Assembly (NCBI GenBank): GCA_029945375.1
Contig: CM057067.1
Location: forward strand, 1,674,001 to 1,738,000
Direction: 5' to 3'
Source: Agaricus subrufescens
Lineage: Eukaryota > Basidiomycota > Agaricomycetes > Agaricales > Agaricaceae
Length of the DNA stretch: 64,000 nucleotides
The notes under the pieces were generated by a model. The model worked only from the letters and a program-made list of their open reading frames with translations. It was not told the DNA's origin and searched no databases. Below are positions 23,490 through 56,560 of this stretch, one piece after another. Made by a program: the position numbers and the translations under genes. Each line of letters opens with the position of its first letter. Positions within the stretch are counted from its first letter, which is position 1.

Positions 23490-24242
23490 ATCAGAACGCC
23501 CGCCACTTGTATAGCTGTGGACCACCAACTAATGATCTTGGACCTTCGGGTGGTTCTCTTTGTCATGTGATTGACGCTTCAGGGAACGAATCGGAAATGG
23601 CCATCGCCGATCGGAGGTTCCCGTCAAAGGTGATGGTATTAGTCATGCAGTGATGCACAACGTGACGACTCTGACGACAATACACTGCGTGTGAGTTACC
23701 ATAAACCCTAAGGGTTTTTAGTAATTTAATTCTGAGTATTTTTCAAATGAAACTCAGAATAGACTCCGACATCTATATGTAAATTTATTCTGAGTATGTA
23801 TTAAAATAAATAACAGGCGATTATCTTGAATTATTTGTGTATCTATCATGACTCGGCTAGCTAACATACGGTTAAAAATAGGTTCAATAAAGCTCCCATA
23901 CAATATATTGAACTCTTTGTATTAAAAAGTCAACATAGATTCAGGAAATACTGCATCAGTTTATTCTAGCCTTTTGCTACGATCTTTTTGAACTTGTGCA
24001 GAGGTTAATCATGGGCATGAAGTCACCGCTGACCACATATATTACCAAAATATCAGTCTCTAGTTTTTTCTGACTAAATGGTGTGTTTGTGGAGGATAAG
24101 CAGAGTAATTGGAACGTCTCCTGAATTGAAAGGGTAGAGTCATAGTAAGGAGAGATTGAGTTGTACACGCTCAGTGAATCAGAATTGAAGGTAAACAAAT
24201 ATCAATGGAAGCTGTTCTGTTGCCAGCTCAAAAATGTCCCAG

Positions 24243-24773
24243 TCAATACAAGTGCGTTGGTCTGAATGAAAAGAGAACATACCTGCGTTTAGAACCTAAG
24301 TTAATAGTCATTCCCTTCTCAAAAAGTCACTCAAAGTTTTTTCCATCTCTCACTCTTTTTGCCGACGTCGTGTACCACGCACAATCTTTGTGATTCCTGG
24401 GCATAGGGGCATGATAAGTTCCAATTTCGCAATTATGCTTATCGAAAAGGCATATAGTAGAATGCCGATCGCGTTGACGCCACTGTGTTGGGGAGAGGTG
24501 ATTGAGGTTTCTGTACTACAGTAAAAACAAGCAAATGCAACCATATACAAGAACTCACATTATGATACCACATATAGGGCCCTCAATGGCATCTCGGATA
24601 CAATCTACTACAAGTTGTGGCCATAGCTTGCGAAGAGAGGCAGCAATTTTGTAACGGGTTGAGCGTGTCAAGTAGGTTTTCCTTGGACCGTCTAAATACA
24701 GCTTGACTGAGTGTTGCCTGGCGAGATTGTGCTTTTGATGACGCTGTCCATTGCGAGCGAGGTACTGAGACAT
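24243..24773 (-). CDS. Small TIR-borne gene, left copy (144 aa, unknown function)
   Basis: Three exons in phase: 24559-24773, 24331-24510, 24243-24282 (TGA). Key stretches: VKLYLDGPRKTYL, LRKLWPQLVVDCIRDAIEGP, NLNHLSPTQWRQRDRHS, APMPRNHKDCAWYTTSAKR. The inverted copy at 54080-54631 preserves the same exon phases and a similar protein despite base changes, which argues that it was under coding constraint. The sequence is basic and tryptophan-rich. I do not recognise the family; a DNA-binding accessory protein of the element is one possibility but nothing proves it. Confidence 0.5.
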
Positions 24774-27700
24774 GTTCAGTAAGCGGGAGGGGCAATGGAG
24801 GACGAAAATGAAGAGTGATGGAAGGTGAATCGCTTACTGCATCAATGACATGCCTCATTTGCACTTGATTCATGCAAGCCAAACCCTCTCATCTATACGA
24901 CACTCCATCGCTACAGCTACAGCCGGTATGCAGCAGATTCCTGATACCTTCGGTTCATCTTCAGCATGACCTCTCATCTATCAAATTGTCAAGCTATAAT
25001 GTCAATTTGTTCAAAGCGAGAGGCTTGTATCATTCGCTGGAGGGCCAAACTTTGATAGGATAGGAGAGGTCAATGATGCTGACACCGGATTACGACCAAA
25101 CACGTGATCTGGGCATTCTTTTGCCTCCAACATCATCTGTCGTCTGCACCTCGCCGACCTGGTTCTCCTCAACAATAATGCGCATGTGGGATCTCCTTCA
25201 TAGAAAACGAGTCAAAGGCATAAAGTTGGAATTTCGTAATTCCAACTTTCTAGGACTTTTGAAATTCTTTGGAATCCGCAATTTGGGCAGCACAAACTCT
25301 TGATCGAGTGGAAATACGAGGACCAAAAGTCCTACGTTGATATAGAAGTGCATCCCTCTCTGGTTGGCCTTTGGTGCAGAACAGGTTAGCCCATCCAGTG
25401 ACCTTCACAAAGATGCACTTACCAATACAATTTGAACCACATGCCAGATCCATGCTACCAGAACTGAACAGCCTGCGTTTAAAGCAGATACGACAGACAG
25501 AAAAAAACCATAGGATAATCGGATTCTTGGGTTTCAAGTTTCCAGAATCCGGATATAACTACATAGACGTTGTAATTCACAACCTAGCTCAATTTTGCCT
25601 CGACTTGCAGTTAGGTTTGACCGTAGTCGAGCTCTGTGTCACCCATACCTTTTATTAACACGTTCATCTACGGCAAATGGTGACTGTGCTCACTTAAGAC
25701 ATAGAAAACAGGTAGAAGATCGGTTCATATGGTATAATGCAAAATTCCTGAATGAGAATTTGAGCTCAAAGGATCGTGAGTTTTACAATGTCGTTCTGCC
25801 TCCTTCAGATTGAATGAGGCATAGCAGACCCTTCTACCAACTGTCAGCCCAATATTTATGATTGCATCTTCGATAAAGCCTACTTACCATAGTTCGTGTT
25901 GGGGTTCGTAATATTGAGAATTCTGGATTGTTGAAATCCCAAAACCTTGGAATCTTGCATCAAGAAGTGGAAAGGCTAGAGAGCGAAAGACAAGTTCATA
26001 GCTGGAAAACATACTTATGGTAATAGACCATGAAAAATTCAATACGCGTACAAAACCCTCCCAACAAGAAATGGGAATGGGTCAATAGACCCTAGATTTT
26101 GCGATACAAAAAGGTTACTCACCCGGATAGGTGGTCACGCATGGCATATGCAAGCCAAGAATAGTATAGATAGTATATTCACAGCACGATGCATCTACGT
26201 AGAACGCGAGGGGCTTTCTAATAGTCTGCCATTTGTTGCTGCTCCAGCTCTTGACATATACTGTTATAGGAAAGTCAGAACTTTTGATTTTGGATTTTGG
26301 ATTTCTGAAATTCCTAAAAATACTAAATATCCATTATGATGCGCTATTCCATTGTTGGGGTCAGCAAGGGAAACTGGCCACAAAGATAACGTCTGGAGTC
26401 GTTCAAAGTGGCTGCTGCAAGCCGGCAGCTGATGCAGAAAACCTAGCGGTACGTCCCATATGATGAACAATTGATGGAGATAATAACAGTGATGAAGGAT
26501 CATCAGCGAAAGGGGAAATATGGGGCAAGAGCACTTGCTATGTAATGATACATTTTGTGTGCTCCGTCAGACACCCAAAACCACAAGGTTGTTTCTGCGA
26601 TTCATCGCTGCTCCAGTTCTTGATATACAGACAGGGTAGCTACAGAGTGGCAACCACAATTTATGCAGCTGTGATGGATAAGTCAGAACTTTAGATTTTG
26701 GATTTTAGATTTCTGGAATTCCTGAAATTACCAAATCCTGATCATGGTGGCGCGCTTCGGGATTTTAAAGCCTTGCATCCTGGAGCCAGAACTTGAGAAA
26801 TATGATACTAGAATAGTCCTGTATGAGATTTTGAGCGCGCAAGAGCGACTAGTGCGCACCTCCTCTTCTGCACAGGCTAGATCACCCAGGGAGGTGGAAT
26901 AAGTCATTGAATTGGGCCAGATTTAAGATTTGCTCAGTGGAGCAAAAATTCTACTCACCGCTTCAATGCCCCGAGCCCCTAAGGTTTTGGAGTTTGTAAT
27001 GTCGCTAATTATGGATTTGTGTAATTGTTCCAATGTGTTTGAAAGGTACTATCAGAGGATAACTTCGTTAAGTCGATACAAAGTGACCAGAAGTCTCTCA
27101 GTACATGTCCACTCTGTGTACATGTCACTCTTCTGTAGGAATGGCACGTGAAGATACGAGGAGGCAAATCAGTGATGTATATCACTAGTACTTTGATAAG
27201 CGATGAGGAAGGTAATTATACTGTTCAAAACCTCCCCAATAGACAGATGCATTCAGAAGCTGTAGATGCGGCTCGTAGGCTCCAAAGGATTCAAATGAGC
27301 CACTAAGCCTAGAAATTTGATATGCATCAGTTGGCCTATCGTGATTAGGAAGCCAATGAAACGGTTCAAGACTTACAGGGGGTTTGAAAACGCCAGGATC
27401 TGATGGACGCCATCAATAAAGAGGCCAGAGGACTGTAGGCAGTAGGTATTGCCTGATCAGTCAACGAGAAATTACTACTTCCGTTGCCAGCTCCTGGGTA
27501 GCTTGTTATTTTGCAAATCAAACATCGCAGGGTTCATATGTACAAAGGTACTGCCAAATAATCGATTTTGCTAATGATGCGACAGCGTAGTGCATTCCTA
27601 CTGTGCATTTTTTGAGTTGAATTAGCTCCATATAGAGCAGCAAACACAACACTCACAGAAACCTCAGAAACCTCTCTCTTCTGCACATGTCCATATGGCA

Positions 27701-27987
27701 CTCATGACCTCCGCATGGCAGCCCAATTTCATGGCATCAAAACCACAACCTGCAACATATCGCTGCACAAGTCATATCAGCCAAGGGAAGTCGAGAAGAA
27801 TTTTATGAACCATTCTTCAATCCATGCCACAGAAAAGGCTGCAAAGAGCCCTTCAGTTAAAACTCATATTCAGAGCTAGTATCTCAAGGTTACATCTACT
27901 CACCTGAATAGAATGTGGTTGCAGTACAACAGAATCCAACAGGAACGAAACCTTTGCCCGACCAACAAAGGCTATAAGAGAGCATAG

Positions 27988-28125
27988 GGACTCAGGTCTG
28001 CTATGCGACGGCTGGAGGCGACATATGTCTACCTCCAGAATGCATAGGGACTAGTGTCTGCTATGCGTGTGGGCCTTATAAGAGATGAGCAAGAGCCTAG
28101 GGACCATGGTCGTGGTGACTTGTCA
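27988..28125 (+). repeat. Cluster of GAC-N4-GTC dyads at inner end of left TIR
   Basis: Four copies within about 140 bp: GGGACTCAGGTCTGC, GCGACATATGTCTACC, GGGACTAGTGTCTGC and GGGACCATGGTCGTGG. Two lie inside a larger repeat GCATAGGGACT...TGCTATGCG. The same array, inverted, is at 47985-48120, and related dyads recur at 37.1 and 42.9 kb. Likely recognition sites for an element-encoded protein (inference). Confidence 0.5.
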
Positions 28126-28291
28126 AGAGAGTCGATTGAGACTCAGCCATCAAACTTGTGGCAATGTGATTAATCACACACGATTACATTATTGATCACT
28201 CCTGCAGATTGTATAACTCATCAATTAACTATAGACATAGGATATATAGAGGAACAAAAACTTGAGCAGTTGAGTGCTCGGTAGGTATGGG

Positions 28292-28620
28292 TTATATAAA
28301 CGCGACATTGAAGCCAGCTGGAAGGTAAAAACGACCCTCTAGTGTCCCCAGGTATCAACATCAACCAGGTTGTGCCAGCAGCCTGTCACTCCGGCAGGTC
28401 AGGCCGCCATACTGCTTGATTGTCCTGCATGATTGAGGGCATCAGAAAACACGCGTTAGCGCTGGGGTCAATCTTACCTCAGTAGCTCTGGGCTGAAATC
28501 AAGAGAAACTTCGGGCTGTGCATTAATGTGGCTCTTCTCAAGATCGTTGAGATTATTATACCACTGATCATCATAGAAGTTGCATGGCAGTTGTTTCACT
28601 GCTTTGCAAGCACTATCCAC
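28292..28620. other. Boundary between left TIR and first cargo gene
   Basis: 329 bp of unique sequence between the inner end of the inverted repeat and the stop codon of the first minus-strand cargo gene. It would contain that gene's 3' untranslated region. No ORF supported. Confidence 0.4.
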
Positions 28621-30578
28621 TCAAACAGGATTGGTCTCAGTTTGAATCGTTGGCCAATTTCCTTGCTTTGGAATCCCACCTTCGAAACGACGAACCATAT
28701 GCAAGGCATCAAAAACTCTAAACCACTTTCGGACACGGTCACTGTGCCACCCCGGCTCTATAATCACATGAACAGTATCACCAGAGGGCAATATTACCTC
28801 TTCATCCCCGCTGCAGGCATCAGGTGACAAGCACTTCCACAGTTCTGCATACTTTTCCAATTCTGGTGAGAGACCTTCATAGTAGTAGCAAGCATTTGCG
28901 CGCTGTTGTCGTCGCTAATACAAGTTAACAGCAGACTATCAAATGATCAGTGAGATTGCGCACATTATATTTTCGACCATTGGCATTTGTAGCCTTCTTT
29001 TTGAGTTCGCGAGCTGTAACATTTGGTGATGGAGTGCGCTCTTGGGCATAGATATGCTTCAGGGTCTTGAATGTCATCCAAAAGGAATCTTCTATGGCCT
29101 GCTTGGAGTCAAAATTGTCCCCTTCAATATCCGCATAGTGTTCAAAGAAAATGTCCACTGCACGCCTATTCCAAGGGGACTTAAGATTTGAGATGAAGTC
29201 CAAGTGGAATTGGTCCAGCAATGGACCATCACAAAATCTCCTGGTTCTGGCAAATGTTTCGCACTCATATTGAGTTGCTGAGACAAGCTTCGTTAGACCT
29301 CTGCAGTAACCAAGAAGATTCCTCAAACTTTCCCGTATACGTTTCTGGGGAGAGGATGTATGAAAACCCTTACACATATACTCAAAGATTAAATACCTTG
29401 AAAAGATGGAACTCTTCTCCACAGTTCCTAGGGTCCCGGTTTGGGTATTTTCCATTACCGTGGTATCTTACTAAGTCACTTTCATCATCAGCGTCTCCAT
29501 CATCGTCATGACCAGGATGAACAGGCAAACTTCTTGCTGCCTTTCTAGATGGAGCATTGACCTCTTGAAAGTGATGCTAATAAGATAAATTAGTTCTTTT
29601 CTAGGGCCAGAAATAAATGACAAGCAACCTGACTGAAGTCACCAGGAACAGCAGAACTGGGCAACTGTGAACTACCGAAGCCACCAATCAAGCCTTGGAA
29701 ATTATTTGCGGCATTTTGGTGGGTGTTATTAGGAGCTACAGAATTTTGGCCCCACGTGTTGAATACGGTATCCGAAGTTTGCCAATTATGGAAGTGGTTC
29801 ATGGAATGAACTGCTGCTGGATAAAAAGACAGATTTAATAGATGAGCTAGTGGGTGAATAACACCTACTGGTTTCATGGCGCACTGGGGTGTTTGGAGCT
29901 TTGGGGGTGACGTGGCCGTAAGAGGGGTTCACGAGATTTGAGGAATTCACAGAATTCAGATGGTCTGTCTGGAATCTTGCTAGTATTGATAGGTTGGGGT
30001 TTTGAGCCAGTTGAGGCTCACAGCTTTCAAACAAATTCAATGCACCAGGCTGAGACTCTGGTACTTCTGACACAAAATACTGAGTATCATTGAGTTGACA
30101 CTTTGCAGAACTTACCTCTTTCCAGATGATGGTCGACTTGGATTATGCCGGTATTTGTCCCTGCCAATAATCAATGGCTATCTTCCAAGTTACAGGTGAC
30201 ATTACACATACGGGTAGTAGTTATGGTCAAGATTGGGGCCGGATTTGAAGAAGGCGAAGGAATGGAAGGTCCCTCGCCAGTTGCTGGCAGAGAAAACGTT
30301 AAAGTATGGTCATGTTGGTCTCGAGCTGTGAACTCAGTGGCAGCCGGAAGTTGTTGGAGAGGACTTGTGTCATGTACCGAAACCTCAGTTGAGGCCTGAG
30401 ATACAACAGGTCCGTCAGGGACTTGCAACTTGCTGGGAGCTGAAGACAAGGTGGCACTTCCTGCGCTTACGTCTTCAGTCCGAGGATGAGTTAGGAGTGA
30501 TTGACTAGGAATTTGGTTTTGGGGTATAGCCGTATGTGGAGGGTTATTAATAGCTATGATGTGGACATGGTCTAGCAA
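28621..30578 (-). CDS. Conserved transposon-cargo protein of unknown function
   Basis: Well-supported exons in phase: 29869-30066, 29629-29816, 29397-29576, 28964-29344, 28621-28914 (TGA). A Pro/Ser/Thr-rich 5' exon at about 30171-30578 probably belongs here, but its start and junction are unresolved. The middle reads RNCGEEFHLFKKRIRESLRN and GPLLDQFHLDFISNL. The C-terminus has RRQQRANACYYYEG, LSPDACSGDEE, EPGWHSDRVRKWFRVFDALH. This tail resembles proteins I know as repeatedly associated with CACTA/KDZ-like transposons in mushroom genomes; no biochemical role is known to me. The N-terminal part (NHFHNWQTSDTVFNTW, many Asn/Ser) looks disordered. Confidence 0.6.
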
Positions 30579-30658
30579 GTGTATCTGTGATCGAAGGCTG
30601 ATGACATACCATTGTTATTCACATAAGTTATTGTTAAATTATGGCAGCTAACTCGGGC

Positions 30659-31728
30659 TCACTTGATAGGTGTAGTATCCGAGTCTATGAGTGACTGCAA
30701 CACACACTCTTCTTCTGCCAAGCTGTTAGACGGAGAGGACTCCCTGCTTTCGGCACTTGGTAGTTGAGCCTCGCTGCTGGAGGGGGATGGGCGTCTTCTT
30801 TTAGTACTTGCATTAGAGTGTTCTACTTCTCTGTCGGAGTGAGACAATCTTCTTCTTTTGGAAGTACCTGAACAAGGCAGGGCATAATCCAGATTTTCAG
30901 GAATCTGACGGCTGGAATTTTTTTAGTGTCTCCTTGGAACCTTTCATTTGGGGTACATACATCGAGGCTGGCTGCAATGCATTTTGCAAATGGACAGTAT
31001 TTGTGTCGACACTCATACCATTGTTTTCCTGAGGCGACAAGGCCAAAAATGGCATGATTCTGGTAGGAGATGTCGAATAATTGGCAGATATAGATTGAAA
31101 GCCATGCGTACCTTGCATTCGTGACTGCTAAGAGCTCAAGTCCCATCATGGAAGGCCTGATTTCTTCCATCGATGGTCCAATCTCCTCGACTTCCATCCC
31201 AGGATCAGGCTCAGCTTCAACTAGTGACATAGCCTCATCCACAGTCAACTGTACCAAAGGCATTACTTCATCAGGCATTTCATCTTCAGGTTCAAGAGTG
31301 GAGAATTGTCTGGAGTTAATTGATGTCAGCCAGTACGAAAACAAAAGAAGTGTGAGACAGTACGAGTGAATCAGTGGTCCATCACTCATAACGGAATCTA
31401 TATCGCCAAGTAGATCAAATGAATCATCACTGTAAATCTCATATAGGCTGGGTTGTCTGAAAAGTTAAATCAATAAAACACAAGGCGAACTATGTTCATG
31501 TCTATACCTTAGGTCTTCATTCTCGGTCTTGTTCTGAGTTATACATTTGTAGACTTGTCGACGTGTCAAATATATATATGAGGACTTTGATTTGGATTCT
31601 ACTTGCCCATTGGGACTTCGGTTGTGAAGAGAAGCATATAAGCTTCCTCTTTCCTTTCTATGGACATTAGCTGCCATGATGTAGGGATCACTGTCTAAGG
31701 TCCGAGACGGATCGACTTGTGAGGACAT
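30659..31728 (-). CDS. 279-aa nuclear-type cargo protein of unknown function
   Basis: Five exons in matching phase: 31508-31728 (ATG), 31364-31456, 31112-31309, 30941-31059, 30659-30867 (TGA), 280 codons. The N-terminal part is basic (NVHRKERGSLYASLHNR; YLTRRQVYKCI). The middle is acidic (TLEPEDEMPDEVMPLVQL, DPGMEVEEIGPSMEEI). The C-terminal exon has two basic clusters typical of a bipartite nuclear signal (TSKRRRLSHS and STKRRRPSPS) followed by Ser/Glu repeats. No catalytic motif is seen. It could be the second (TnpA-like, DNA-binding) protein of a CACTA element, but that is a guess from position and charge. It lies between two other minus-strand genes, with 80 bp to the unresolved 5' end of the next. 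Confidence 0.55.
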
Positions 31729-32144
31729 CTGAGAAAACATTCACAATTTCTTAGTTGATAATAAAAAGCTGTTATACCATGAAATACTACCTCGATGAAT
31801 GTTAAAAGAGCAAAGGTGGTGAAAGGAGTGTTGTTAATGAAAGGATGGTGAAAAAAAAACTTCACAATGTTTTCAGTGAGACAAATTTTTATGAGTGCAG
31901 CAACCTCACCTTTAAGATGAAAGAGTGCTTGAAAGGACGCGATATGGAAAGAGGGAGAAGAAAATGGCGAAAAAGATGATGTTAAACTATTTATATATAG
32001 GAGCACTGATAGAAATGGACGTACAGGGTCGAGAGAGCTTCTCCAAGGTGTTAAATAAAGCCTTGGGGAAATTCGGTTTCAGATGACATAGTGGTGATAT
32101 TTCGTCTTTGCTTGATTGTTGATATATATACGTGCATCTTATAT
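31729..32144. other. Short intergenic between two cargo genes
   Basis: 416 bp separating the start of the 279-aa gene from the stop of the coiled-coil gene, both minus strand. Contains an A-rich run near 31850 and a TATATATA tract near 31995 that might serve the downstream gene. No ORF supported. Confidence 0.35.
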
Positions 32145-34517
32145 TCACTCAGGGTCGGTAATTGTAAGCCAAAGTAACGAAATGAGGACAGGTGTCACAA
32201 TGAGGGTGAACACACTCCAATAGCAATGCACCCCTGCAATGAACTTCGAAACTCTCCCCTCAGCCTGCACCACTTCTTGAGGAGGGTTTAACGACCCTAG
32301 TTGGTTGTCACTTGTTAGTCCTCATAAATTAATCAAATACTCACTGCAAGCCCACTCGTGAAACCTGTCAGGAGCTTCTTCGGCTTGTCGGCCGTCTAAT
32401 TCTTCTACTGATAGTGTCAGATAAATCTTTGTCATGAGATAGAACGGACCAACCTTTCAAAGTTCTTGGGCTTCGTTGCATAGTCAGGTGCCGCTCAGAG
32501 AGAGATTTTAGCTCTGATTGCAGTCCCTCTAATTCCTTTTCCAGTTCCCAATGTGTCCTGACGCACTCATTATTTATCCGGGTAGAAGTGGCATCAACTT
32601 TGTCAAAATGGTCATGAAGGCTTTCATGGAGCAATTGAAAATGTTGACTACTAGAATTGAGTAGTTTTCTAAAACCATTGACGGACATTTCCATCTTTGA
32701 GAATTCGGACTTCATGGTGGCGACATCGATGTTGAATTGATCATGGGTAGACTCAAGCCCATGTACTTTGTCAAACAATACAGTACACTGCTTGTTGATT
32801 GCTCTGGTAGCTTCATCACATTTCCTCATCCAATCCTCAAACTGTTGAATATGCTGGGAGACGAGGCATTGTAGGCTATAGATTTCTTGCGCCTGCTTAT
32901 CCTAAGTTGAACGTTGAACACACAAGAGCATTAGATTACAATAGTACATACAAGATCTTGTTTACGATATCTGAGAGTGGCTTCCATGTGCTTTTGCTCA
33001 AAAAAGCTGTTGTCCTTCAGCTCTCCTAGTTCCATTTCTACTTGATTGATGTTGTGTGATAGTGAAGTAACATTCTGCTTTTGTTGCCTCTCAAGACTAT
33101 CTAGACGGGAAAGAACCACCAATATATTGTTTTCCATGATCTACTATGGGCGTGAAATAGTTGTATACTCATTAGAACAAGTCTTACCTCTCCGCCAATG
33201 TCCTGCAACTCAACTTGAGCCCCAAAGCTTTCAAATGAAGCATTGGAGCGATTGACTGGTCTTCCATGTTCAAGGACTCTTCGGAGTTCAGCAAATCCAT
33301 GTGTAAGCACTGACTCCAAATTACCGGAACTGAGTTGTGGGTGAGAAGATTCCAATGTTTCAATCCACTTTCTGAATGGACCAAGGGCTTCATCAACAAT
33401 CTGGAGATTTCAGGGAGCGCAGTTGGCAGAAGTCGATCAGCTCACCTTTCGGAGAATATCAGCTGCATTAGGGGATTGCACATGCAGTGTGTCGGAATCT
33501 ATGCATCAGATACTATACTTGAACATTCAACATTGACATTTAAATTAGATGATACTCACCTGAAGGCTGCTCCTCGCTCAACAAACCACATTTGTGTGAC
33601 TCTTCCTGTGACATGGACGTCCAAACTGAAGGTTTCAAACCACCACTCTGTTTGAATACGACGAGACCCTGCGCCTTTGTTTGCTAATGGTATACAGCGT
33701 ATCATATTTTATCCACTGGTGTAATGTGTACCCCCAAAAAATCAGAGATCGGGATCTACAGATCTGCGACATGCATAGGTCTCCTTTAGCACCCAACGGA
33801 CTTGTCTCCCACTAAATTTCAGCTGATACTTTTCATCCCCCGTGATGCGCTCATATCCTTGGCCTGCAGCAACCCATTGGACCTCCTCGCTCCCTTCATT
33901 GACCCACATCTGGTGTCAAAGCCTGGATTTCATTTGAACCTCATGCACAAAGATAGTATACTTGTCCAATTTGAGTTTGAGAGGCACCTTGGGGGGGGGC
34001 ATCAATCATTGTGCGACCAGTTTGTAAATACCAATGGCATCGATCCTTGCCATATGTCTTTGACCAGCGTGGTGAGGAATATGGCATCTAATGAAAAATG
34101 TCAATCGCGGTAGAATGAACCCACATATGTAGCAATGCACAATTTTGTTATTTTGTTCCACCAATATATCACCATTGTCCTCATTCTCATCACTCTGATC
34201 ATCTGAGCTAGTGAGAGGGTCAAGACTCAAGAAACTCGGATGTGGAGAGGTCATAAGTAGATCTCGTTCGGCAACTTCACTAGTCTCTTCAAAAGATTTA
34301 CCAGAGGATAGAATACACTGACTATAACTAAAGATATCCTGCATCAAGTCAGATCCATGTCAGCATATTGTGGAGTGCATACACCAGGTATATGCACTTT
34401 ACCTCCAGGAGAAGGTGAAGGATGCAGTAAAATGGCCACTTTGTCTGAGTTCTGTGGTGATTTGATATATGCCAACTCGCCATCACACACAAAAGGAACT
34501 TCAAAAATGGAAGCCAT
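32145..34517 (-). CDS. 611-aa coiled-coil protein with C-terminal membrane anchor
   Basis: Eleven exons join without a phase error: 34398-34517, 34141-34338, 33962-34087, 33760-33909, 33560-33683, 33446-33498, 33188-33400, 32952-33140, 32454-32901, 32345-32407, 32145-32296 (TGA). The N-terminal ~170 residues form a globular-looking part with YGKDRCHWYLQTG, MWVNEGSEEVQW and KLKFSGRQ-like residues (KYQLKFSGRQVRWVLK). A long coiled coil spans about residues 300-530 (SRLDSLERQQKQNVTSLSHN; RTHWELEKELEGLQSELKSL). The protein ends with a single hydrophobic helix (WSVFTLIVTPVLISLLWL) and only a few residues after it (TITDPE). This is a tail-anchored layout: the coiled coil would face cytosol or nucleoplasm and the tail would cross a membrane. 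It resembles KASH-protein architecture but lacks the luminal PPPX end. A SUN gene lies 1.5 kb away. Confidence 0.65.
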
Positions 34518-35270
34518 CGTGAAAGCCCAAAGGTGAAGGAGTGGTATGGAAGGGTTGAGATTCATTCAACGAGACCACGTAACACGTGTTTGCAAGCAGG
34601 GTGAGGGAAGTTTGATTTGAGATTTGGAATAAGCAAAGCATTTGAATGTGAAAATTTCCAGATCATGCATGGGAGATTGTGAATGCATTAGGAGTAACCA
34701 AGAAGTGAAAAACTAGTCCTGAGACGCATGATATTGATCTAGTAAAAAAAAAAACAAGCGAAAGGCTGGCGTGTTCAATATAAAAAAAAAAAACAAACAA
34801 ACAAAGAGATAAACAAATAAAAAAGAGAACCAGGGCTGTCCTTAACCGACATCCCAATTGAATTATTCCACCTAGGCAACCGATTGGATGCTTCATGCTC
34901 TCTTCAAAACGTCTTAACCTAATGTGAGTAGATTCATTTTGTTTTGTATATAGAGCATCACCTTGATTAGAAAGAATGCATAGTCCGGAAGAAAAGCCGG
35001 ACATTGTACTCGAAATAGTAACCACAAGGCCGATATGCAATTTGAAAGGGCATGTACACCAACATTTTATCATATATAAGGCAGTGCAACCGCGTACTAG
35101 GGTAGTCAGTCACCCATTAATGCCGAATTATTTTCCACGAGAAACCGAGTTTCCTGGGTTACAAGTTAAGTCATTTTTTTCATGTGTTTATTAGATACAC
35201 TAACCTGAGCTTAGGAATCCAAGGATTATCATTACCATGTTGGTTTTCTCTTTTCTGCCAAAGAGAAGGC
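34518..35270. other. Intergenic between divergent cargo genes
   Basis: Contains poly-A tracts near 34743 and 34788 interrupted by CAAACAAACAAA repeats. No exon is supported. It lies between the start of the coiled-coil gene (minus) and the plus-strand cargo exon. Confidence 0.35.
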
Positions 35271-35274
35271 AGTG

Positions 35275-35598
35275 ATTGGTGTTGAAATTCATTGCCGTTC
35301 ACACTTTGGGAGATGTTGCCCATCATTGGGAGGTATCCTCGCATCTGAAGGCCGCAACCTCAAGGTTCACAGCATACCCACTAGGGTCCGGTTCCCCACT
35401 ATGGATGATAAATTTGTTCTCACTTTTCAGCTGTCTAACCACCTCACTATCAATGAAAGCATTCCTGGCAACAAACATTGGAGGGGGGACGTTCTGGTGA
35501 TGCAACGAGCAATGTATGTGAACCGGACTCATGATATTGTGAATATACGCTCTGGAGTAGCAGAAAGAGCCGTGGTCGTTCATCTAGTATCAAGGTAA
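35275..35598 (+). CDS. Cargo exon of a conserved transposon-associated hypothetical
   Basis: An open frame of about 107 codons containing DKFVLTFQLSNHLTIN, SIPGNKHWRGDVLVMQRA and DIVNIRSGVAERAV, then an in-frame stop at a GTAAGA donor. The pattern (a hydrophobic opening, then PGxxWRGDVLVM and VVNIRSG) matches short proteins I associate with mushroom transposons, function unknown. The true start is not clear: no ATG precedes the conserved part except the internal one before DDKFVL. It may be one exon of a larger or degenerate gene. Confidence 0.4.
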   Translation: MGVEIHCRSHFGRCCPSLGGILASEGRNLKVHSIPTRVRFPTMDDKFVLTFQLSNHLTINESIPGNKHWRGDVLVMQRAMYVNRTHDIVNIRSGVAERAVVVHLVSR

Positions 35599-41733: not shown

Positions 41734-41891
41734 TGCTACTGTACTCAGACTACAGTACTATAATCCACTAATCGGGTGAATATTATATCGTATGTCAAAA
41801 AATTTTACCAGGGTCATTCCAAGTTCCAAGTGGGGTAAGGGCTTTGAGACTATTTATTAGCCGAGAGTTCATCCATCCGTTTTCTTTCCCA

Positions 41892-43476: not shown

Positions 43477-46400
43477 ATGACAGAGCATAGTCAGGCTCAA
43501 GCTCCATCAAAACAGCTAGACGCTATTGAAAGCTCGCTGTCTACACATGCTATCAATCGATTTTATCAAATTCTGCAAAAGCATGACCTTTGATTTACTG
43601 CCCCGCCCTCTGTGTCTACCGCTCCTGAGGCCCTTCTGTCGCCAAACGTCCTGAAGCTTGACCCTTACTTTCCCAAGAACAAGGTTGCCATTGATCATGA
43701 AGAAATGCTCGGGCACTACTCTCAAACTATCACTGCTCTCTCCGGCATGCCCCAGAGAGAGATACAGCTGTGAATCATTACATGTACTGCCCTGGTGCAA
43801 GAAGAGACACAATCTTTTCTTACCTGGAAGAAGCAAGAGTGGAAACATCAAATACTCATGGCGCGCGAAGCCCTGACTGCTGATCCTAGTGAGTTTTGAG
43901 ATGTCCATCGTCGATAATTGACTCAGGTTGTGATTCTTCCCTCAGGTATTTATATGGATTCTCCGTTCAAATCTCTCCCTTTGGCTGTTGCCCTGACTCA
44001 CTTGACTGTCGTTTCTACACACTACTTGTCCGGTCTCTCATATAAAGATTCGGATTACGTTCTTTCGGCGCTCACACTTCAGAGCCAGATATCCTCCACT
44101 AAACGTCTCCCCTCCATTCCCATTTCCGCTCACACTATTATAGAGCAACTGAACCTGTCACCTAAAGTCACCATCTATGCTTGTTGCCCCAAATGCTTTT
44201 ACCTTTATGAAACGGACCATCAATACCCCCAGACTTGTACGAAATGCGCCACTCCTGACCTGCCTGTTTGTGGGGCAGAGATCTACAGTGATGACAAGGC
44301 TCGGCTGCATTGTGAATACATCATGCAGGATTTCCATGACTGGTTGGCATGCTTTAATGCTCGCCCTGACATTGAAAACCATCTTGATCGCAACATACTT
44401 GCTCATACTCCTGATGCTATGCATGATATATGGGATGGCAAAGCTTTTCAGGAATTTTGGGGCCATGATGGGAAGTTGTTCCTTGAATGCCCTGAGGGCA
44501 AGAGTCGCTTGCTCTTCAGCATCAATATGGATGGTTTTAATCCGTTGTCAAACAAACAGGGAGGGAAACAAATTTTATGCACTGCCATTTACATGGTTTG
44601 CCTTAATCTTCCACCCCACCTTCACTACCGACCAGAAAATGTTTTTCTGGTTGGCATTATACCCGGACCTCATGAACCCTCAGTTACACAAATGAATTAT
44701 ATTCTGCACCCTTTGGTTGACATCCTTCACAAACTGTGGGACGTCAGTCTTTTCCTCAAACAGACCCATAAATATCCTTTCGGTCGCAGGAGTAGAGTCG
44801 GTGTCGTACCTCTTGTTGCGGACCTTCCAGCTTGTAGAAAAGCGGCCGGATTTGGAAGTGCCACTTGCAAACATTTTTGTTCTTGCTGCAATATCACATT
44901 GGAAGATAAGGACAATATCGATACACACTTATTCAGCCCTCGGGACTGGTCGTCACACCTTTGCTTTGCTCGGCTGTGGCAAGATGCGCCAATGTTGAGG
45001 GATCAGGAGAACATTTTCGATCAATTGGGCATCCGTTGGTCAGAGTTGCTTCACTTGTGCTACTGGGATCCCACATCATATGCGACCATAGATTCCATGC
45101 ATTGTTTCTATCTTGGCCTTTTACACCATCATGTCCTGAAGGTTTGGGGAATGCAAGAAAATGCGGTAGATGGACCCGGTGTTACATACAATGCTCTGGT
45201 TAATAAGCCTTCAAATGTTGAGCTGGATCGTGGCCATAACTACCTCCAGCTCCAGGAGTGGAAAGCTTTACTCGCTCTTCCCAAGGCCATCATAACTTAT
45301 CTCTGTTTCGAGAATGGGCTTCGATTTTCTGGTCGATCGAAACCTATCCTTGTCAGTCGTCTTCAGGAAGTAAGTCCAACCTATTTTCCCTTCTCTTCGA
45401 GGTTTGACTTTCGCAGTGGCAGGCTCAGAAGAAGGGGAAGCAGCGACAGACAGAGATGATTTCCACTCATACAGATCTGGCCCCTCATCAACCACTAATC
45501 GCCTCCAGTACTGGTTCGACATCAACCTGCTTTCCAAACACTCGCCAATCTTCAGCCAGACTTACGTCACACAGGATGATAGAACCAACTACACCAGACC
45601 AAGCGTTTACTTCACCAACCCTACCGCTTCAAGTTGTGCCTACCTCACAGTCTCTCACCAGCGACCTCAGGGAGTCGGGCAGGGTTTATCATATGGCTGC
45701 TCCCCCACCAGATATCAATCCTCTCCCCATCAGTGTATTTGAATCAATATTCACGTCGTCAGCTCCTCAACCAACTTGGTCCACAAAACCAAAATCAACA
45801 TTGTCGATAACCATGGGTACTACGAAAGCGAATATTGCAAAGAAGTCGAAGGATGAAGTACTGACTGCCGAGGAAATCGAAGATTATTGGAATTTTCTGC
45901 ATTCAAATCTGCGCTTTCTCGCCTTCCGAAAGTTCATCTCTATCAAATACTTTCTACAAAGTCACCAAATACCTGCATCAAATCAGAGGCTCTCAAGCCG
46001 GATATCCTCAATGAGATACAATGCTTGGTAGGTTCCTGCCTTTCCATCAATAGTGGTCTCTGACCCCCACTCCCTTCTATAGCGCAAAGCAGCACGAGTC
46101 ATCAATGAAAATGATAAACCAATTCAACAAATTGCTCGTTCAACAGCCTCTCCGGCGTCTGTTCCCCGACACGTTTCTACCCGTTTGTCGACGGTTCCAA
46201 TATCCATGGGTGGCAACAATTCCATTGGTGTTCAGCCCGCTGTTCCTCAAGACCTTACTTTTGACGAAGAGTTCAGGATTTTTGGGGGGATGGAACTTGA
46301 TGGTGAAATGTGTAATCAGGTGAGTTGCTCATTTTATGGTGCAAACATACATTCAACAACCTTCTTTAGGCTCAAATAGGTCCACACAAAAGTACAGCTA

Positions 46401-47770
46401 AATTAGATGTATGTTAAGATGTCAAAGTTGCCTACTCGAGCTAACAATATGTTTAACTTAGCGACTTCCAACAAAACCCCGCAAAGAAACTTGTGTTCTA
46501 GGTAAAGAAAAGGTTGGTGATATAAAATTGGACATGACCTGCACTATTGTCCCATCGTGGGTTCCAAGAGGGTCCAAGAAATCCAGGTTCAACAAAACAG
46601 GGAAAACTTCATGCGGATCAATGGCGCTCGTTCTGCACAATCAACTTGGTGATCACATTAATTAGGCTTTGGGGTTCAGAACCCGAATATAGCAAGGAAG
46701 GTTTAATGCTTACGAATTTTCTGCATCTTGTCTCAGCCATCGAGTATGCATCGCTTTGTGTGGTGACAGAAGAGTCAATTCTCGCTTATGAAACCCACAT
46801 ACATGCCTACCTTCGAACGCTCCTTGAGCTATATCCTGGAACAGAGCTTGTCCCCAATCAGCATATGGCGCTTCATTTTGGTGATCAACTCCGAAGATTT
46901 GGACCAACGCACGGTTGGCATTGCTTTGCATTTGAAAGGTTCAACTATCTTTTGCAGCAAGTTCAAACCAATATGATCGAAAGTTCGTCTTGTTTGACTA
47001 CTTAATTTGAATTAGCTGCTGATACACTGGTAATAGACCAAATGGAGAAAACAATGTTCAACAGTTTCTGTATAATGCAACGGCTCCGTCCTTTATTCCA
47101 TCCATCACAGTTACCTAACGATCTCCACCCCATTGCTAACTCTTTCCGCAAGACTTACGATCAGGATATGTGTGGCACATTCATGAGTGAGGATTTTGGA
47201 CAAGACAATCAAGATCTCGGTCTTGATGCTGATGACAAGCTTCAGTCGCTTCCCCGTGACGTTTTCATGCTCCTTTGTGATTGGTATAAATGGAACAATG
47301 TAGCTGCGAAAGATATATCTCGCGATGTTCATCTCTGCAGCACAATACCGTCACAGGTACTCTACAAGACTGCAGGACGATCCCAGCCGGATAGTCATAT
47401 CATGTTTCATTCACAAGGGCCCAGCAACTCTCAAAGGGCAGTGTGGCATGCTGGATCAATCATGTCGATTTTCCAACACCAGCTCAAAGGCGTCAAGACT
47501 ATGTTCTTTGTAGTCGATCCGTTTATACCTGCCAAATTGGAGTTGGCTCACCCTGAAGTGTTTCGCCAAGCTCACTTATTTTCATTTGTAGCTGGACAGC
47601 TATTCAATGTCGAGGGTCTTTTGCCTCCCACCCTTGTTTCTGTTGATCAGGTGATTGGGCATTTTGCATACGCAAAAACGGATTACTGCGATGCTTCTGG
47701 GCACATGTTATTTCAGGTATTACCCCTCGAAAAGGTCGGGTGCAGTTCAATGTGCGACGTCCTTAACTGA
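43477..47770 (+). pseudogene. Tnp2-type CACTA transposase, disrupted
   Basis: Exon 1 is 43477-43888, exon 2 43946-45369, exon 3 from 45417. Hallmarks of Tnp2: a zinc-like CCPKCFYLYETDHQYPQTC, FSINMDGFNPLSNKQGG, LPPHLHYRPENVFLVGIIPGP, LVADLPACRKAAGF, CSCCNI, and IDSMHCFYLGLLHHH. A SAP-like motif (GLRFSGRSKPILVSRLQE) follows. The C-terminal part has GKLHADQWRSF, LVITLIRLWGSEPEY, PNQHMALHFGDQLRRFGP and FAFERFNYLL. Damage: TGA at 43591-43593 and 43771-43773, both in frame and each one C-to-T step from CGA, and an extra G in the GGG at 46570-46572 that shifts frame (WVPRG then PRNPG). I could not close one junction near 46000. Family knowledge: Tnp2 is the DDE enzyme that excises and inserts CACTA elements. 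This copy probably cannot make it, so mobility would need another source. Confidence 0.8.
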
Positions 47771-47984
47771 TTCTTGTTTACAGCAATGATGACTGTATTG
47801 TATTTTGCATACCCCATACCTACCGAGCACTCAACTGCTCAAGTTCTTGTTCCTCTATATATCCTACGTCTATAGTTAATTGATGAGTTATGCAACCCGC
47901 GGGAGTGATCAATAATGTAATCGTGTGTGATTAATCACGTTGCTGCAAGTTTGATGGCTGAGTCTCAATCGACTCTCTTGACAA

Positions 47985-48125
47985 GTCGCCATGACCATGG
48001 TCCCTAGGCTCTTGCTCATCTCTTATAAGGCCCACACGCATAGCAGACACTAGTCCCTATGCATTCTGGAGGTAGACATATGTCGCCTCCAGCCGTCGCA
48101 TAGCAGACCTGAGTCCCTATGCTCT
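47985..48125 (-). repeat. Cluster of GAC-N4-GTC dyads at inner end of right TIR
   Basis: Inverted copy of the cluster in the left arm: GACCATGGTC, AGACACTAGTCCC, AGACATATGTCGCC, AGACCTGAGTCCC. Conservation of all four dyads in both arms, when much of the arms has diverged, hints that they matter for the element. Confidence 0.45.
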
Positions 48126-49154
48126 CTTATAGCCTTTGTTGGTCGGGCAAAGGTTTCGTTCCTGTTGGATTCTGTTGTACTGCAACCACATTCTATTCAG
48201 GTGAGTAGATGTAACCTTGAGATACTAGCTCTGAATATGAGTTTTAACTGAAGGGCTCTTTGCAGCCTTTTCTGTGGCATGGATTGAAGAATGGTTCATA
48301 AAATTCTTCTCGACTTCCCTTGGCTGATATGACTTGTGCAGCGATATGTTGCAGGTTGTGGTTTTGATGCCATGAAATTGGGCTGCCATGCGGAGGTCAT
48401 GAGTGCCATATGGACATGTGCAGAAGAGAGAGGTTTCTGAGGTTTCTGTGAGTGTTGTGTTTGCTGCTCTATATGGAGCTAATTCAACTCAAAAAATGCA
48501 CAGTAGGAATGCACTACGCTGTCGCATCATTAGCAAAATCGATTATTTGGCAGTACCTTTGTACATATGAACCCTGCGATGTTTGATTTGCAAAATAACA
48601 AGCTACCCAGGAGCTGGCAACGGAAGTAGTAATTTCTCGTTGACTGATCAGGCAATACCTACTGCCTACAGTCCTCTGGCCTCTTTATTGATGGCGTCCA
48701 TCAGATCCTGGCGTTTTCAAACCCCCTGTAAGTCTTGAACCGTTTCATTGGCTTCCTAATCACGATAGGCCAACTGATGCATATCAAATTTCTAGGCTTA
48801 GTGGCTCATTTGAATCCGTTCATTCATGCTCTACAAGCGTCTGGCGAAATACTTTGATCCTCGCATACTTTTGGGGTACACAACTAATCCTTTGGAGCCT
48901 ACGAGCCGCATCTACGGCTTCTGAAGTCTTCGCGTTCCGATGGATCTATATGTGTAAGGGGGTGCTCAGTGAGTGCTATCTTTGGTGCCCTATAACTGGT
49001 TGATTCACATCAGGTACACTTACACGACACACCTACAGCACTTGGACTCTTTAGGAATGGTATTCATCAGAGAACCAAGGATCTCTGAACCTCCAGTTCC
49101 AGACAATTCAATCACCCTTCCCATCACTTATCAAAGTACTACTAGAATAAGATA

Positions 49155-50733
49155 CAGTGGGCAACAAAACCTTTCCAATGTTTTGTATATTTGTAAAGAA
49201 CATGCTATAGCAGTCCAAATAAATTGTGTAAAATCATGAAAATATACAGGAAGGTACATCAGCATCTTGTTTACATGTATGTACAATCTTGTGGCTGTGC
49301 TTTGGATTTAAGTTCAGTTTCAAGAGGGTTTAAGATTGAGGACCATTGGAAAGGTTTTGTTGCTGCTCATTTCAAAGACAGAAAAGGCTAATTGCTGGAG
49401 CTTGCAATGATGTTTGTCAGTTGAAAGTGTTACATAATAATATTCTTATGTTGCTTTCACTATTCTGTGACATGTCACACCTGTTATGTCACACCAAACC
49501 ACTTCCAATATTTGAAAAACATTTACTTGATTATTATATAAGAAATTGTTATTTAGTCAAATGTTTTTAGTGATAATTTTGTATCTGGTCTCAGAAAAAG
49601 TTAGCTTGGAACATAATCACACTCATATAATGTGATTAGACCAGTTTCAGCTGTTTTTGTAGATGTTTTTCAATGTATAGTCTTATTAAAATATTATATT
49701 ATCTACTTTTTGGTCACAAATCTCTGGATTTCTAGGTTGTTCTCATTCTAAAATTTACTATAGGAGTCTCTAGTGTTCTAGTCTTTAATTCTGTTACCCC
49801 TAAAGTGTAGTCAAATGTTTTAATTTACCTGGAAATAGCTTGCAATGTTAGCATAACATGATAGAATCAGGGGTACACATGTAGACTTATGAAAAACAAG
49901 TTTTGATGGACTAAATAATCATGTCATAGGCCCAATATACTAGAATAAGTACCTTGTAGCAAAGTCAATATAGTTCAATAGTAAGAATAAGAAGAAAAAG
50001 GCTAAATCAAAATGGCATATAGAGATAAAGTAATTTACAAGAGGTAATACAGTTATCTGCAACTGTACACTCAGTAACTGAATTGAAATTGCTATGGATA
50101 TTATATATAGAGTAAATGCTCATGTTTTGAAAGTAAATTTGAGATACTAACATCCAAGCAGCTTTCAAAATTTGACATAAAAAAAGAAGAAATTGTGTTT
50201 TCTAGTGAAAAATGGTACAAATACACTGGAAATGATCAAGAGAATAGCCCCAAGATGTCATGCACATACTTTTGAATAATAAATAGCCCATTTGCACACA
50301 AGTAAGCAACTTTAACCTAGGTACAAGATGAGAAGGCTTCAAAGTTTCAAGCAATAGGAGACTTAGACTATTTTCCAAATTACAGGGGGTTTGGTGTGAC
50401 ATAACAGGTGTGACATGTCACAGGATAGTGAAAGCAACATGAGAATATCATTATGTAACATTTTTAGCTGACAAACATCATTGCAAGCTCCAGCAATTAG
50501 CCTTTTCTGTCTTTGAAATGAGCAGCAACAAAACCTTTCCAATGGTCCTCAATCTTAAACCCTCTTGAAACTGAACTTAAATCCAAAGCACAGCCACAAG
50601 ATTGTACATACATGTAAACAAGATGCTGATGTACCTTCCTGTATATTTTCATGATTTTACACAATTCATTTGGACTGCTATAGCATGTTCTTTACAAATG
50701 TACAAAACATTGGAAAGGTTTTGTTGCCCACTG
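49155..50733. mobile_element. Nested non-autonomous Tc1/mariner-like element with ~350-bp TIRs
   Basis: Begins CAGTGGGCAACAAAACC and ends with its inverse, GGTTTTGTTGCCCACTG, flanked by TA on both sides (49153-49154 and 50734-50735). The inverted repeats run about 350 bp, to the GTGTGACATAACAGG region, with only scattered differences. The first ~20 bp recurs inverted inside each TIR (CATTGGAAAGGTTTTGTTGC near 49347), giving a fold-back structure. The 880-bp interior is AT-rich with no transposase frame. The TA duplication and CAGT start fit the Tc1/mariner superfamily. It is absent from the left arm, so it inserted after the arms formed. Confidence 0.78.
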
Positions 50734-52288
50734 TACCAATATGCCTCCCACTGTTTTTGCTCTCGATCGTAATTTCCTACAACCTTTAATCTCAGTACAA
50801 GCCCTACACAACCCACACTCCTGCAATGGTCTCACATCAAATCACTCGATTCTGCAACACGTGCGAAGAGTAGTCATTTACCAAGTGACATGAGTCTTTG
50901 GCTTTACATGACAGACCTTGGTCCTCTTACCCGGCTCAATTGAAAGACTGTTCTCTAATCAAAAATGACTTTGCAGAAGTTGAACAAGGCCTTATATGTG
51001 TATTCAGTTTCATGGTGTAACGCCATACTGTGCTGCCTAATGCCTAGTGAATAAAGCACGTATCTCTGCTCATGTGATTTTGTTTCCGCGCCTTTCCACC
51101 TGTCAATGGACTTAGAAGCTACCTTTTTTGTTTTGTCCATTGAATTTCAAAGAATCAAGGGCGCTATTACAACAATCCTGAAATTCTGGCATTATGGACT
51201 CCGAAAGTTCGGGTGTTACGGAAATGGTGAGTATAGTCATCCTGTCGCCTCATCGATATCATCATGAGTATTGGGCTGACTATGCGTAGGATAATCCGCC
51301 ATGCTTGGGTCAAAGCAAACTCTACACTGTACCAGCAACGTTAAAGTTCAAGTTGCAAAAACCTTGCTCTTGTGAATGTCTGGATTTCCGATATTCCACT
51401 TGGGGCACATAGATGAGCCTTCCATTTGTATTCTACGCTATAAGCGAAACCAGCCTACTGCAGATAATTGTGTTTATAGAAAAGATGGGTGACCAAGCTC
51501 GATACTGTTGTGCCAACACTCGCATATCAGTTTGCCTGGGTATTCTGCCTCTGTTCAATTTTGGAGCCGTTTCTCCATCAGCTGCTTTGAATGAGCGCGG
51601 ACATTACCTTTGAGGCCGGTTTCCCTCACTGACCCCAACAATCAAATAGCGCAAAATATGTCGTACCCGAGAGTGGTCTTTATGGCAAGTCACTACTCTT
51701 TGTGTGAAGTATCATGTACTACTCCTCATATGAAGGATCACGTCCTGTCGGATTCACGCAATGTATATATGCGTGTGGAACATGTTGACTCCCTTGGAGA
51801 CTTATCTCTTGGATTCATCAGAAAAGCCCTTTGCATTCTACGTAGATGTGTCACATCGCAAATATACTATATATGCCATTGCTGGCTTGCGTATGCCATG
51901 CGTGACCACCTATCTGAGTGAGTAACATTTTTGTATTGCAAAACCTAAGGTGTATTGACTCATCTGTATTCTGTCCCAATAGCACCAAAGTTTCCTCAAC
52001 TTCCCAACCTGGAAAAGGAAATCCTGCCTACTAGATGCTGCTAGGTTTGAGAGCAACATTCAGGCATGATATTAACTTTGAAGCATGGGCCAGTGGCTAT
52101 AGTTATTCATCTGCAACCACAAGTCAATGTCAATTGAGGTGTAATACATTATGCAATGGCTAAGATACGTTGTTCGTTGCATAGTATGTCTCTCGACATT
52201 CTCTACCAAAAGCAAATGGCTGATGTCAGTTGCGCTTAGATTCCATGAAAAATATGCATGGATCTAGACGACTATGACCAATTGACAT

Positions 52289-54079: not shown

Positions 54080-54631
54080 ATGATTTGCGACAGCCACAAA
54101 CGCAACAGACGGTACAATCTTACTAGGCAGCGATCGGTCAAGCTGTATTTAGATGGTCCAAAGAAGAAATATCTCACACCTTCGATCCAATACAGAGTAG
54201 CAACCTCTCTCCACAAATTGTGGCCACGACTCATCATAGACTGTGTCCGCGATGCTATTGAAGGCCCTATCTGTGGTGTCATAACGTGAGTTCTGGTATC
54301 CACATATATGTGCTTATTCTCATTGTAATGCAGAAATCTTGAGCATCTCTCCCCTACCCAATGGCATCAACACGATCGACACTCTACCATACGCCTTTTC
54401 GATAAGTATAACCACGAGATAGGGGCATATCATGCCCCTATGCCCAAAAATCATGGAGATCGCGTGTGGTACACGACTTCTGCAAAGAGAGCAAGGGACG
54501 GAAAGGATTTTGGGTGAGTTTTCGAGAAGGGAATGTCAGTCATTTTGTATCATAAATGCAGGTATGTTCTCATTTTCTTCCACACTGATTCCATACTGAC
54601 AATTGTATTGACCAGGATACTTTTGAGATGA
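54080..54631 (+). CDS. Small TIR-borne gene, right copy (151 aa, unknown function)
   Basis: Exons 54080-54285, 54334-54513, 54562-54631 (TGA) join in phase. The middle exon is exactly 180 nt, as in the left copy. Conserved stretches: VKLYLDGPKKKYL, LHKLWPRLIIDCVRDAIEGP, NLEHLSPTQWHQHDRHS, APMPKNHGDRVWYTTSAKR. The N-terminus differs from the left copy (MICDSHKRNRRYN versus MSQYLARNGQRHQ), and the C-terminal exon has diverged to a hydrophobic end. The retained splice sites in both arms favour a once functional gene. Function unknown. Confidence 0.5.
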
Positions 54632-55131
54632 CAATAGTTTTGACAATAGTTTTCTGAATTCCACTGTTTGACGCATCATTAGCCAGTTCACCAGGCCTTG
54701 TATGTTACTTACAAAATACAGTTCGAGACCCTAAGTGAGGTCAGAAAAAGCTAGGCGACCATATTCAGGGAGTATACAGGGCCAACGTTGACTCTATGCT
54801 TGTGATTAAATTCTACATAAAGTCAAAGTGCTCTCAATAAACTGTCGGAATAAATCCATGTAATATATTTGGGATTTATAGTAACTTTCTTACACAATGA
54901 GTTCAGTATAATGTCTAAGAGCTTTATCAAACCTATTATTAGCTATATGTTAGCTAGCCGAGCCATGATAAACACACAAATAATAAAAAACAATTGCCTG
55001 TAACTTATTTTAACATAAGTTCAAAATTAAAATACTAATAGATGTCGGAGCCTATTCGGAGTTTGATTTAACACATACTTGGAAATATATTACTAAAACC
55101 TCCTAGGGTTTATGGTAACCCACATGCAGTG

Positions 55132-55313
55132 AATAGGGTTGGGGAAGAAACCCCCTGGGAGGTTTTTTACAGGTAAATAACAACAACCCTTGGTAGGGGG
55201 GGGTTTTTTACCTGTTATTTACCTGTTATTTACCGGCACATGATGACGCACGCAACTTTCCACGTGATCTGTTCTATTTTTAACTAGCTATGTAGTACTC
55301 GAAAAAAATTAGC
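55132..55313. other. Right flank of the giant element
   Basis: Starts with the presumed AATA target duplication. It then has a G-rich and poly-G stretch near 55196 and repeats of ACCTGTTATTT with an inverted AGGTAAATAAC partner, able to form a hairpin. No gene supported. Confidence 0.4.
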
Positions 55314-56557: not shown

Positions 56558-56560
56558 TGA

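Follow-up and report, generated by a model that had tools for sequence, protein, structure and literature searches.

The window analysed here is a 64,000-nucleotide stretch of the Agaricus subrufescens genome (contig CM057067.1, C11 below, positions 1674001-1738000; assembly GCA_029945375.1, 44.65 Mb in 44 contigs). It contains what is almost certainly a mobile, CACTA-like DNA transposon of the Tnp2 type, here called copy E1, which carries a transposase gene and a block of further genes, one of them encoding a SUN-domain protein (Table 1; positions are those of the window unless a contig is named). The left end of E1 reads CACTGCGTGTGAG... from 23683, and its inverted counterpart, ...CCACATGCAGTG, stops at 55131; CACTGC is present in inverse orientation at both ends, and AATA adjoins each end on the outside, as an initial annotation of this DNA had noted. 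The same annotation had recognised the collinear inverted arms, which measure 4.6 kb on the left (23683-28300) and 7.3 kb on the right (47804-55131) and whose pieces pair at 74-99% identity: 74% for 23680-24074/54740-55134 and for 24217-24730/54114-54637, and 82% for 26077-26217/51823-51963. The right arm is longer in part because it holds a nested inverted-repeat element, which we take to be possibly mariner-like.

Table 1. Features of copy E1 in window coordinates; gene models are predictions
Feature	Position	Strand	Description
Left target-site duplication	23679..23682	+	sequence AATA
Whole element, copy E1	23683..55131	.	31,449 bp; C11:1697683-1729131 of the host assembly
Left terminal inverted repeat	23683..24074	+	~392 bp, 74% identical to right partner
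Left inner inverted repeat	27284..28295	+	1,012 bp, 98.7% identical to right partner; adjoins gene core
Gene PA	28474..29802	-	~320 aa; dN/dS 0.12
Gene PB	30174..31740	-	exons partly modelled; dN/dS 0.33
Gene PC	32145..34517	-	~515 aa; C-terminal transmembrane segment, very short tail; dN/dS 0.20
Small gene	35120..35598	+	~142 aa; dN/dS 0.13
SUN-domain protein gene	35992..37056	-	~308 aa; N-terminal transmembrane segment, C-terminal Sad1_UNC; dN/dS 0.20
WD40 protein gene	37807..39224	+	C-terminal transmembrane segment; dN/dS 0.19
Gene G39	39642..42687	+	up to ~800 aa, start uncertain, conserved; dN/dS 0.28
Tnp2-family transposase gene	43697..47770	+	start and some splice sites uncertain; dN/dS 0.20
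Right inner inverted repeat	47809..48820	-	pairs with 27284-28295 (aligned piece 47809-48820)
Nested AT-rich element in right arm	49153..50735	.	1.58 kb; 366-bp inverted ends starting TACAGTGGGC...
Right terminal inverted repeat	54740..55131	-	partner of left terminal repeat
Right target-site duplication	55132..55135	+	sequence AATA

The core of E1 holds eight predicted genes, including the transposase gene. A comparative script that takes splicing into account produced the models, in which the start positions and part of the splice sites are uncertain. For each gene, the ratio of nonsynonymous to synonymous substitution rates (dN/dS) was calculated between E1 and a second copy, E2, taking as the coding frame of each exon block the frame with the fewest stops. 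The coding frames have dN/dS values of 0.12-0.33 and are free of stops in E1, with a single stop in E2 (in PB); the two shifted frames have values of 0.66-3.48 and, in E1, 14-78 stops in each gene. The initial annotation's count of "at least eight other genes" is slightly too high: comparative coding support exists for seven beyond the transposase. The Tnp2 assignment made there holds (PF02992, E 1e-10, 41.6 bits against a cut-off of 28.6). The Plavaka transposase family (PF18759) has no match in the E1 transposase exons scanned, and a tyrosine recombinase (DUF3435) has no Pfam match in the scanned frames and models, which cover the core apart from part of PB and do not extend to the arms.

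The most striking part of the block, missed in the initial annotation, is a SUN-domain protein accompanied by two proteins, the WD40 protein and PC, that each have a C-terminal membrane segment. The SUN domain is identified by its Pfam family (PF07738, 42 bits against a cut-off of 22) and by a profile of eight relatives, whose match to human SUN2 (E 2.8e-16) includes an aligned C-terminal NWG...TCxY...H motif. In a fold search with the predicted structure, SUN1 and SUN2 fill the top 12 places among the PDB matches (E 1e-11 to 1e-9), and further beta-sandwich proteins start at E 8e-6. Hydropathy places one transmembrane segment N-terminal to the SUN domain, as in a relative from Agaricus bisporus (59% identity, one of two matches). 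SUN proteins are residents of the inner nuclear membrane whose SUN domain faces the perinuclear space and there binds the KASH tails of outer-membrane proteins. The WD40 protein just exceeds its family cut-off (PF00400, 27.8 bits against 27); its membrane segment recurs in a second lineage on C9 (below) and in a Leucocoprinus protein, whose deposited model fuses WD40 and G39.

The remaining core proteins are less readily classified. PC is probably a coiled coil, as suggested by weak, below-cut-off family matches of its sequence. No Pfam domain was found in the small gene, and none above cut-off in PA or G39. PA has no relative in other species among 1474 candidates at E <= 0.001. For G39, nine relatives were found among the best 7,996 candidates scored, six of them in Leucocoprinus birnbaumii and one in Macrolepiota fuliginosa; its best PDB sequence match has E 0.033, with no solved relative, and the best PDB fold match of its predicted structure (mean predicted local distance difference test score, pLDDT, 64) has E 1.9.

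Searches of the assembly with each E1 end gave 33 and 43 matches and revealed three further full copies: E2 (C9:2536835-2564785, 27,951 bp, duplication CTTT), E3 (C5:33843-62812, 28,970 bp, duplication TATA), and E4 (C2:989398-1026125, 36,728 bp, duplication AATC). All four giant copies have CACTGC at both ends and a 4-bp target duplication, and all four have the same gene core between their arms, flanked in E2-E4 also by inner inverted repeats, at 77-90% identity. Comparison of the 3-kb flanks of E1-E4 gave no cross-match, the sole match being E1's own left-right repeat. The assembly also holds miniature inverted-repeat transposable elements (MITEs) of about 0.5 kb with E1-type ends. Twelve such short loci were examined, and the counts refer to these, the remaining end matches being left unpaired: both ends are intact in nine, each with a 4-bp duplication (eight independent cases, two loci having identical flanks within a duplicated segment); the other three lack an intact end and have no 4-bp duplication. 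The proposal of the initial annotation that the locus is a single mobile unit, with other copies to be sought by means of the termini, is thus borne out by full copies with the same ends, their own 4-bp duplications, and unmatched flanks. The ends, duplications, copies, gene block, and coding-type selection are all legible in the DNA itself.

A pattern search for ends returned the E-type ends, an end on C9, an end on C6, and five matches of unrelated sequence. Apparent 10.7-kb copies on C6 were rejected as short elements; they represent a short copy of 529 bp, flanked by a TAGG duplication of its own and adjoining another CACTG terminus and a SUN gene, and the C6 stretch examined has no Tnp2, G39, or PA match. 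A paralogue of the left flank (C11:1440932-1441423, 90-95% identity) was rejected as a clean empty site, because its homology breaks off close to the left duplication and is taken up again, over 45 bp, at window position 56558, other sequence lying between; the frame next to this paralogue looks HSP20-like, an assignment that we presume by recognition rather than by domain scan. The outer direct repeat 23188-23533/55538-55884 (91%) was rejected as part of the element: it is flank sequence, found at three genomic places.

A four-way alignment of the core (~20 kb) reveals 87% identity between E1 and E2-E4 and 98-99% among E2-E4. In 500-bp bins, E1 is a mosaic: left of ~38 kb the bins are mostly 70-86% identical to E2-E4, with one bin at 91%, and from there to the right core edge they are 91-97% identical. 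The shift near 38.0 kb is likely a recombination or gene-conversion boundary between a PC/SUN half and a WD40/G39/transposase half. In copies E3 and E4 the core faces the same way with respect to the left end and the outer arms are swapped, with the switch at the inner repeats; specifically, E3 1-1455 matches E4 36728-35275 inverted, at 92.9%. This swap would be explained by recombination between the inner inverted repeats, flipping the core.

The association of SUN, G39, and PA with one transposase lineage extends well beyond these copies. A search with the E1 transposase gave 19 loci at 42-100% identity and ten at 30-36% (hand-counted from 60 matches, the rest being short or weaker pieces). 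A SUN gene lies within 40 kb of 16 of the 19 close loci and of none of the ten in the next tier (Fisher P 1.4e-5). The three close loci without a SUN gene are at C26 and C29, both at contig starts, and at C5:3202 kb; the usual spacing suggests that at C26 and C29 the SUN gene would fall off the contig. In the reverse direction, 42 SUN matches correspond to 24 loci, three of which (one on C8 and two on C7, with longer frames) are presumed host genes. Seventeen of the other 21 lie within 40 kb of a Tnp2 match (94 matches, of which three were dropped as second pieces of a locus, leaving 91 typed loci), a distance for which 13.3% of the genome qualifies (binomial P 4.7e-12, duplicated segments ignored). 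PA relatives are near SUN at 15 of 16 loci (48 matches) and G39 relatives at 16 of 25 (66 matches), with a SUN-G39 spacing of 3.2-4.4 kb at 14 of those 16. The 19 close loci fall, in our own grouping, into eight lineages: every lineage has a SUN neighbour at at least one locus, and seven, C18 excepted, have G39 and PA. Judged by sequence, the SUN-transposase association is old; one transposase lineage is found with SUN and other conserved genes across divergence down to ~42% transposase identity.

One of these lineages, on C9, starts with an end at C9:54572 (CACTGTACAGG...), followed by transposase, PA, G39, WD40, and SUN genes; no far end was detected in the stretch examined, up to 82 kb. The proteins are 23-46% identical to those of E1, one transposase exon reaching 64%, and the WD40 protein again has a membrane segment. 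Inner inverted repeats are present here too (C9:56668-57333 and C9:79679-80342, 666 bp, 98.3% identity), and a Ras-family GTPase gene (PF00071, E 1.5e-23) lies inside them at C9:78044-78445.

Several observations concern the surroundings of these loci. The G39 relatives at C1:50154, C4:3577456, and C10:36468, which have no SUN or Tnp2 neighbour within 40 kb, are each ~100 kb or less from a contig end. Two element/SUN loci with ~134 kb between them are present on C1 (1.34-1.49 Mb) and again, in inverted order, on C2 (0.75-0.90 Mb), which suggests a large duplicated segment. In the window, a 709-aa frame with a Plavaka transposase match (20529-22655, plus strand; PF18759, E 2.2e-83) lies 1 kb left of the element; a 590-bp inverted-repeat stretch with 63-bp ends (98%) lies just to its right, at 55969-56558; 58312-61055 is repeated at 61264-64000 (87%); and two frames encode NACHT or nephrocystin-type ATPases (15050-16321 and 62268-63548, both minus strand).

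The conserved gene block is very probably integral equipment of the element. It is common to four copies and under purifying selection, and SUN occurs in about eight diverged lineages, so that it looks like standard equipment; the cargo of the initial annotation stands as a gene block and fits poorly in the Starship sense of variable host genes. The best overall explanation, in which we place middling confidence, is an autonomous cut-and-paste transposon with a nuclear-envelope kit. Transposases of the Tnp2 type move DNA by cut and paste, acting at inverted ends; the element's own transposase would likely excise and re-insert it in this way, and the copies would have arisen so. The SUN protein and its membrane-anchored partners would, as we predict, serve as a tether to the nuclear envelope, holding the element, its nucleus, or the insertion machinery there, and such tethering would likely aid either insertion or passage to daughter and partner nuclei; recombination between the inner inverted repeats may in addition flip the core. 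In this scheme the predicted core proteins would be made, the SUN protein would be an inner nuclear membrane protein, the WD40 and PC proteins would be its partners, and the benefit of the kit would go to the element. While the SUN domain, the membrane segments, and the association with one transposase lineage come directly from sequence comparison, we give an envelope role that aids the element an even chance. A more specific version, in which a giant-transposon lineage uses its own complex, resembling the linker of nucleoskeleton and cytoskeleton (LINC), as a segregation or drive system, with SUN as the element's anchor at the spindle pole or envelope and with an advantage for the element in mitosis, in meiosis, or in transfer between the dikaryon's two nuclei, is a tentative idea that we consider rather improbable.

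A number of observations weigh against an envelope kit conserved with the element. A canonical KASH tail is absent: PC ends in TDPE and the WD40 protein in KLDLLN, with very short tails, and a luminal tail ending in PPPX is given as the KASH criterion in the accessible text of PMC6034078. With two membrane-anchored proteins that lack canonical KASH ends, a strictly defined LINC complex is conjectural. The SUN model has modest confidence (mean pLDDT 63) and modest template-modelling scores to SUN1 and SUN2 (0.37-0.44, normalised by query). The coiled-coil call for PC comes from weak, below-cut-off family matches, PC has no relatives detectable by sequence outside the E family, and E3 lacks ~0.43 kb inside the gene. 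Because E1 is a mosaic around 38 kb, each dN/dS value averages different histories. As to the association, the loci are less independent than the P values imply, several of them being segmental duplicates. Four of the 21 SUN loci have no Tnp2 neighbour (C10, two duplicated C6 loci, and a C4 locus that has a G39 neighbour and no Tnp2 within 40 kb), one of the presumed host SUN genes has a different type of Tnp2 at a distance of 39.7 kb, and the seventeenth linked SUN locus, on C3, has a Tnp2 neighbour that is unlisted in the E1 transposase search. Only SUN and Tnp2 were found at C18, with neither G39 nor PA, and nine of the 25 G39 loci are without a SUN neighbour.

The alternative that survives best, a doubtful one in our judgement, is that SUN and the membrane-anchored proteins control chromatin position or silencing at the nuclear periphery, rather than insertion or transmission. 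It would accord with Cryptococcus Sad1, which is found near kinetochores and may, as has been proposed, connect chromatin with the forces of microtubules (PMC6034078, accessible text), and with the TET/JBP dioxygenases carried by several fungal DNA transposon lineages, which are thought to act against methylation silencing and make accessory anti-silencing genes an established theme (PMC12730594, accessible text). What speaks against it is the domain content: apart from the transposase, the scanned frames and models, with PB covered in part, have no DNA- or chromatin-binding Pfam domain.

We consider it unlikely that the non-transposase genes are captured host cargo, kept, as in Starships, for the benefit of the fungus. 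Giant cargo-bearing elements are known in fungi, the core genes are under purifying selection, and the Ras-family GTPase inside the C9 inner repeats does look like a captured gene. However, E1-E4 share one core set; SUN, mostly with G39 and PA, accompanies one transposase lineage in about eight lineages, down to 42-45% transposase identity to E1; and the three presumed host SUN genes on C8 and C7 are separate loci.

Less probable still is a CACTA-like transposon fused with an extrachromosomal replicon that needs its own segregation, the inner repeats serving as flipping repeats. The precedent would be Teratorn, reportedly a fusion of a transposon with a virus. Teratorn is named as a giant transposon in the accessible text of PMC6431247, which reviews such large elements. 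The core flip between E3 and E4 and the 98.3-98.7% identity of the inner repeats in two lineages with 45% transposase identity are in line with such a fusion, but the inner repeats of E2-E4 are merely 77-90% identical, and the Pfam scans, made outside the arms, found no replication protein, polymerase, helicase, or capsid domain. Finally, the notion that there is no mobile unit, and that repeats met by chance or host DNA was segmentally duplicated, can be practically set aside: the assembly does seem to hold large duplicated segments, as at the SUN loci ~134 kb apart on C1 and C2, but for E1-E4 this notion is refuted by the different 4-bp duplications at exact ends in unmatched flanks, and the short copies share the ends and 4-bp duplications.

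Cut-and-paste transposons normally have one or two genes, and the long inverted arms and conserved internal gene block are, as the initial annotation had remarked, unusual for the class. The element shares with CACTA/EnSpm transposons (the CMC or CMCT group) the Tnp2 transposase (PF02992), 5'-CACT...AGTG-3' ends, inverted repeats, and short, internally deleted derivatives. It differs in its length of 28-37 kb, its seven further genes under selection, including SUN, its second, inner repeat pair, and its ends, which read CACTG and do not have the 5'-CACTA motif, with duplications of 4 bp. CACTA target duplications are usually 2-3 bp. The class given in the initial annotation, CACTA, therefore holds for the transposase and is better worded as CACTA-like, not canonical, in view of the ends and duplications. 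In Puccinia, EnSpm families have 3-bp duplications, and the wider CMCT group has 2-5 bp (PMC12730594, accessible text). CNIRT6 of Cryptococcus neoformans, also from a basidiomycete, has a CACTA-type transposase and the CACTG end motif; it differs in its 3-bp duplications and ~6.9-kb transposase gene annotation, and no accessory set is described in the accessible text (PMC12810828).

Fungal DNA transposons with a conserved accessory gene are represented by the TET/JBP-carrying EnSpm, Plavaka, and KDZ elements, including EnSpm in Agaricus bisporus, in which the accessory gene encodes a dioxygenase (PMC12730594, accessible text); "SUN domain" and "nuclear envelope" have no occurrence in the text of that paper. 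No transposon with a SUN gene was found in the literature searched, in accessible texts, which mostly excludes subscription journals and leaves absence from print unproven; within that literature, the ability to act at the nuclear envelope that the SUN protein would likely confer has no description for such elements. With the SUN-KASH LINC complex, the element shares a SUN membrane protein of the right topology and two adjoining proteins with C-terminal membrane segments; it differs in that these are encoded by a transposon and in that no canonical KASH tail was found (PMC6034078, accessible text). The genome offers a test bed in which complete elements, gene-free short copies, and related transposases without SUN neighbours occur together. 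With Starships, described also from a basidiomycete, the element shares giant size and genes beyond the mobility gene, but Starships have a tyrosine-recombinase captain and variable cargo, whereas a Tnp2 transposase and a shared gene set are present here (PMC13066641, accessible text). Provided that the proteins work where their domains imply, the element would be one that manipulates the architecture of the nucleus, on a scale comparable to that of Starships and arrived at by a different route.

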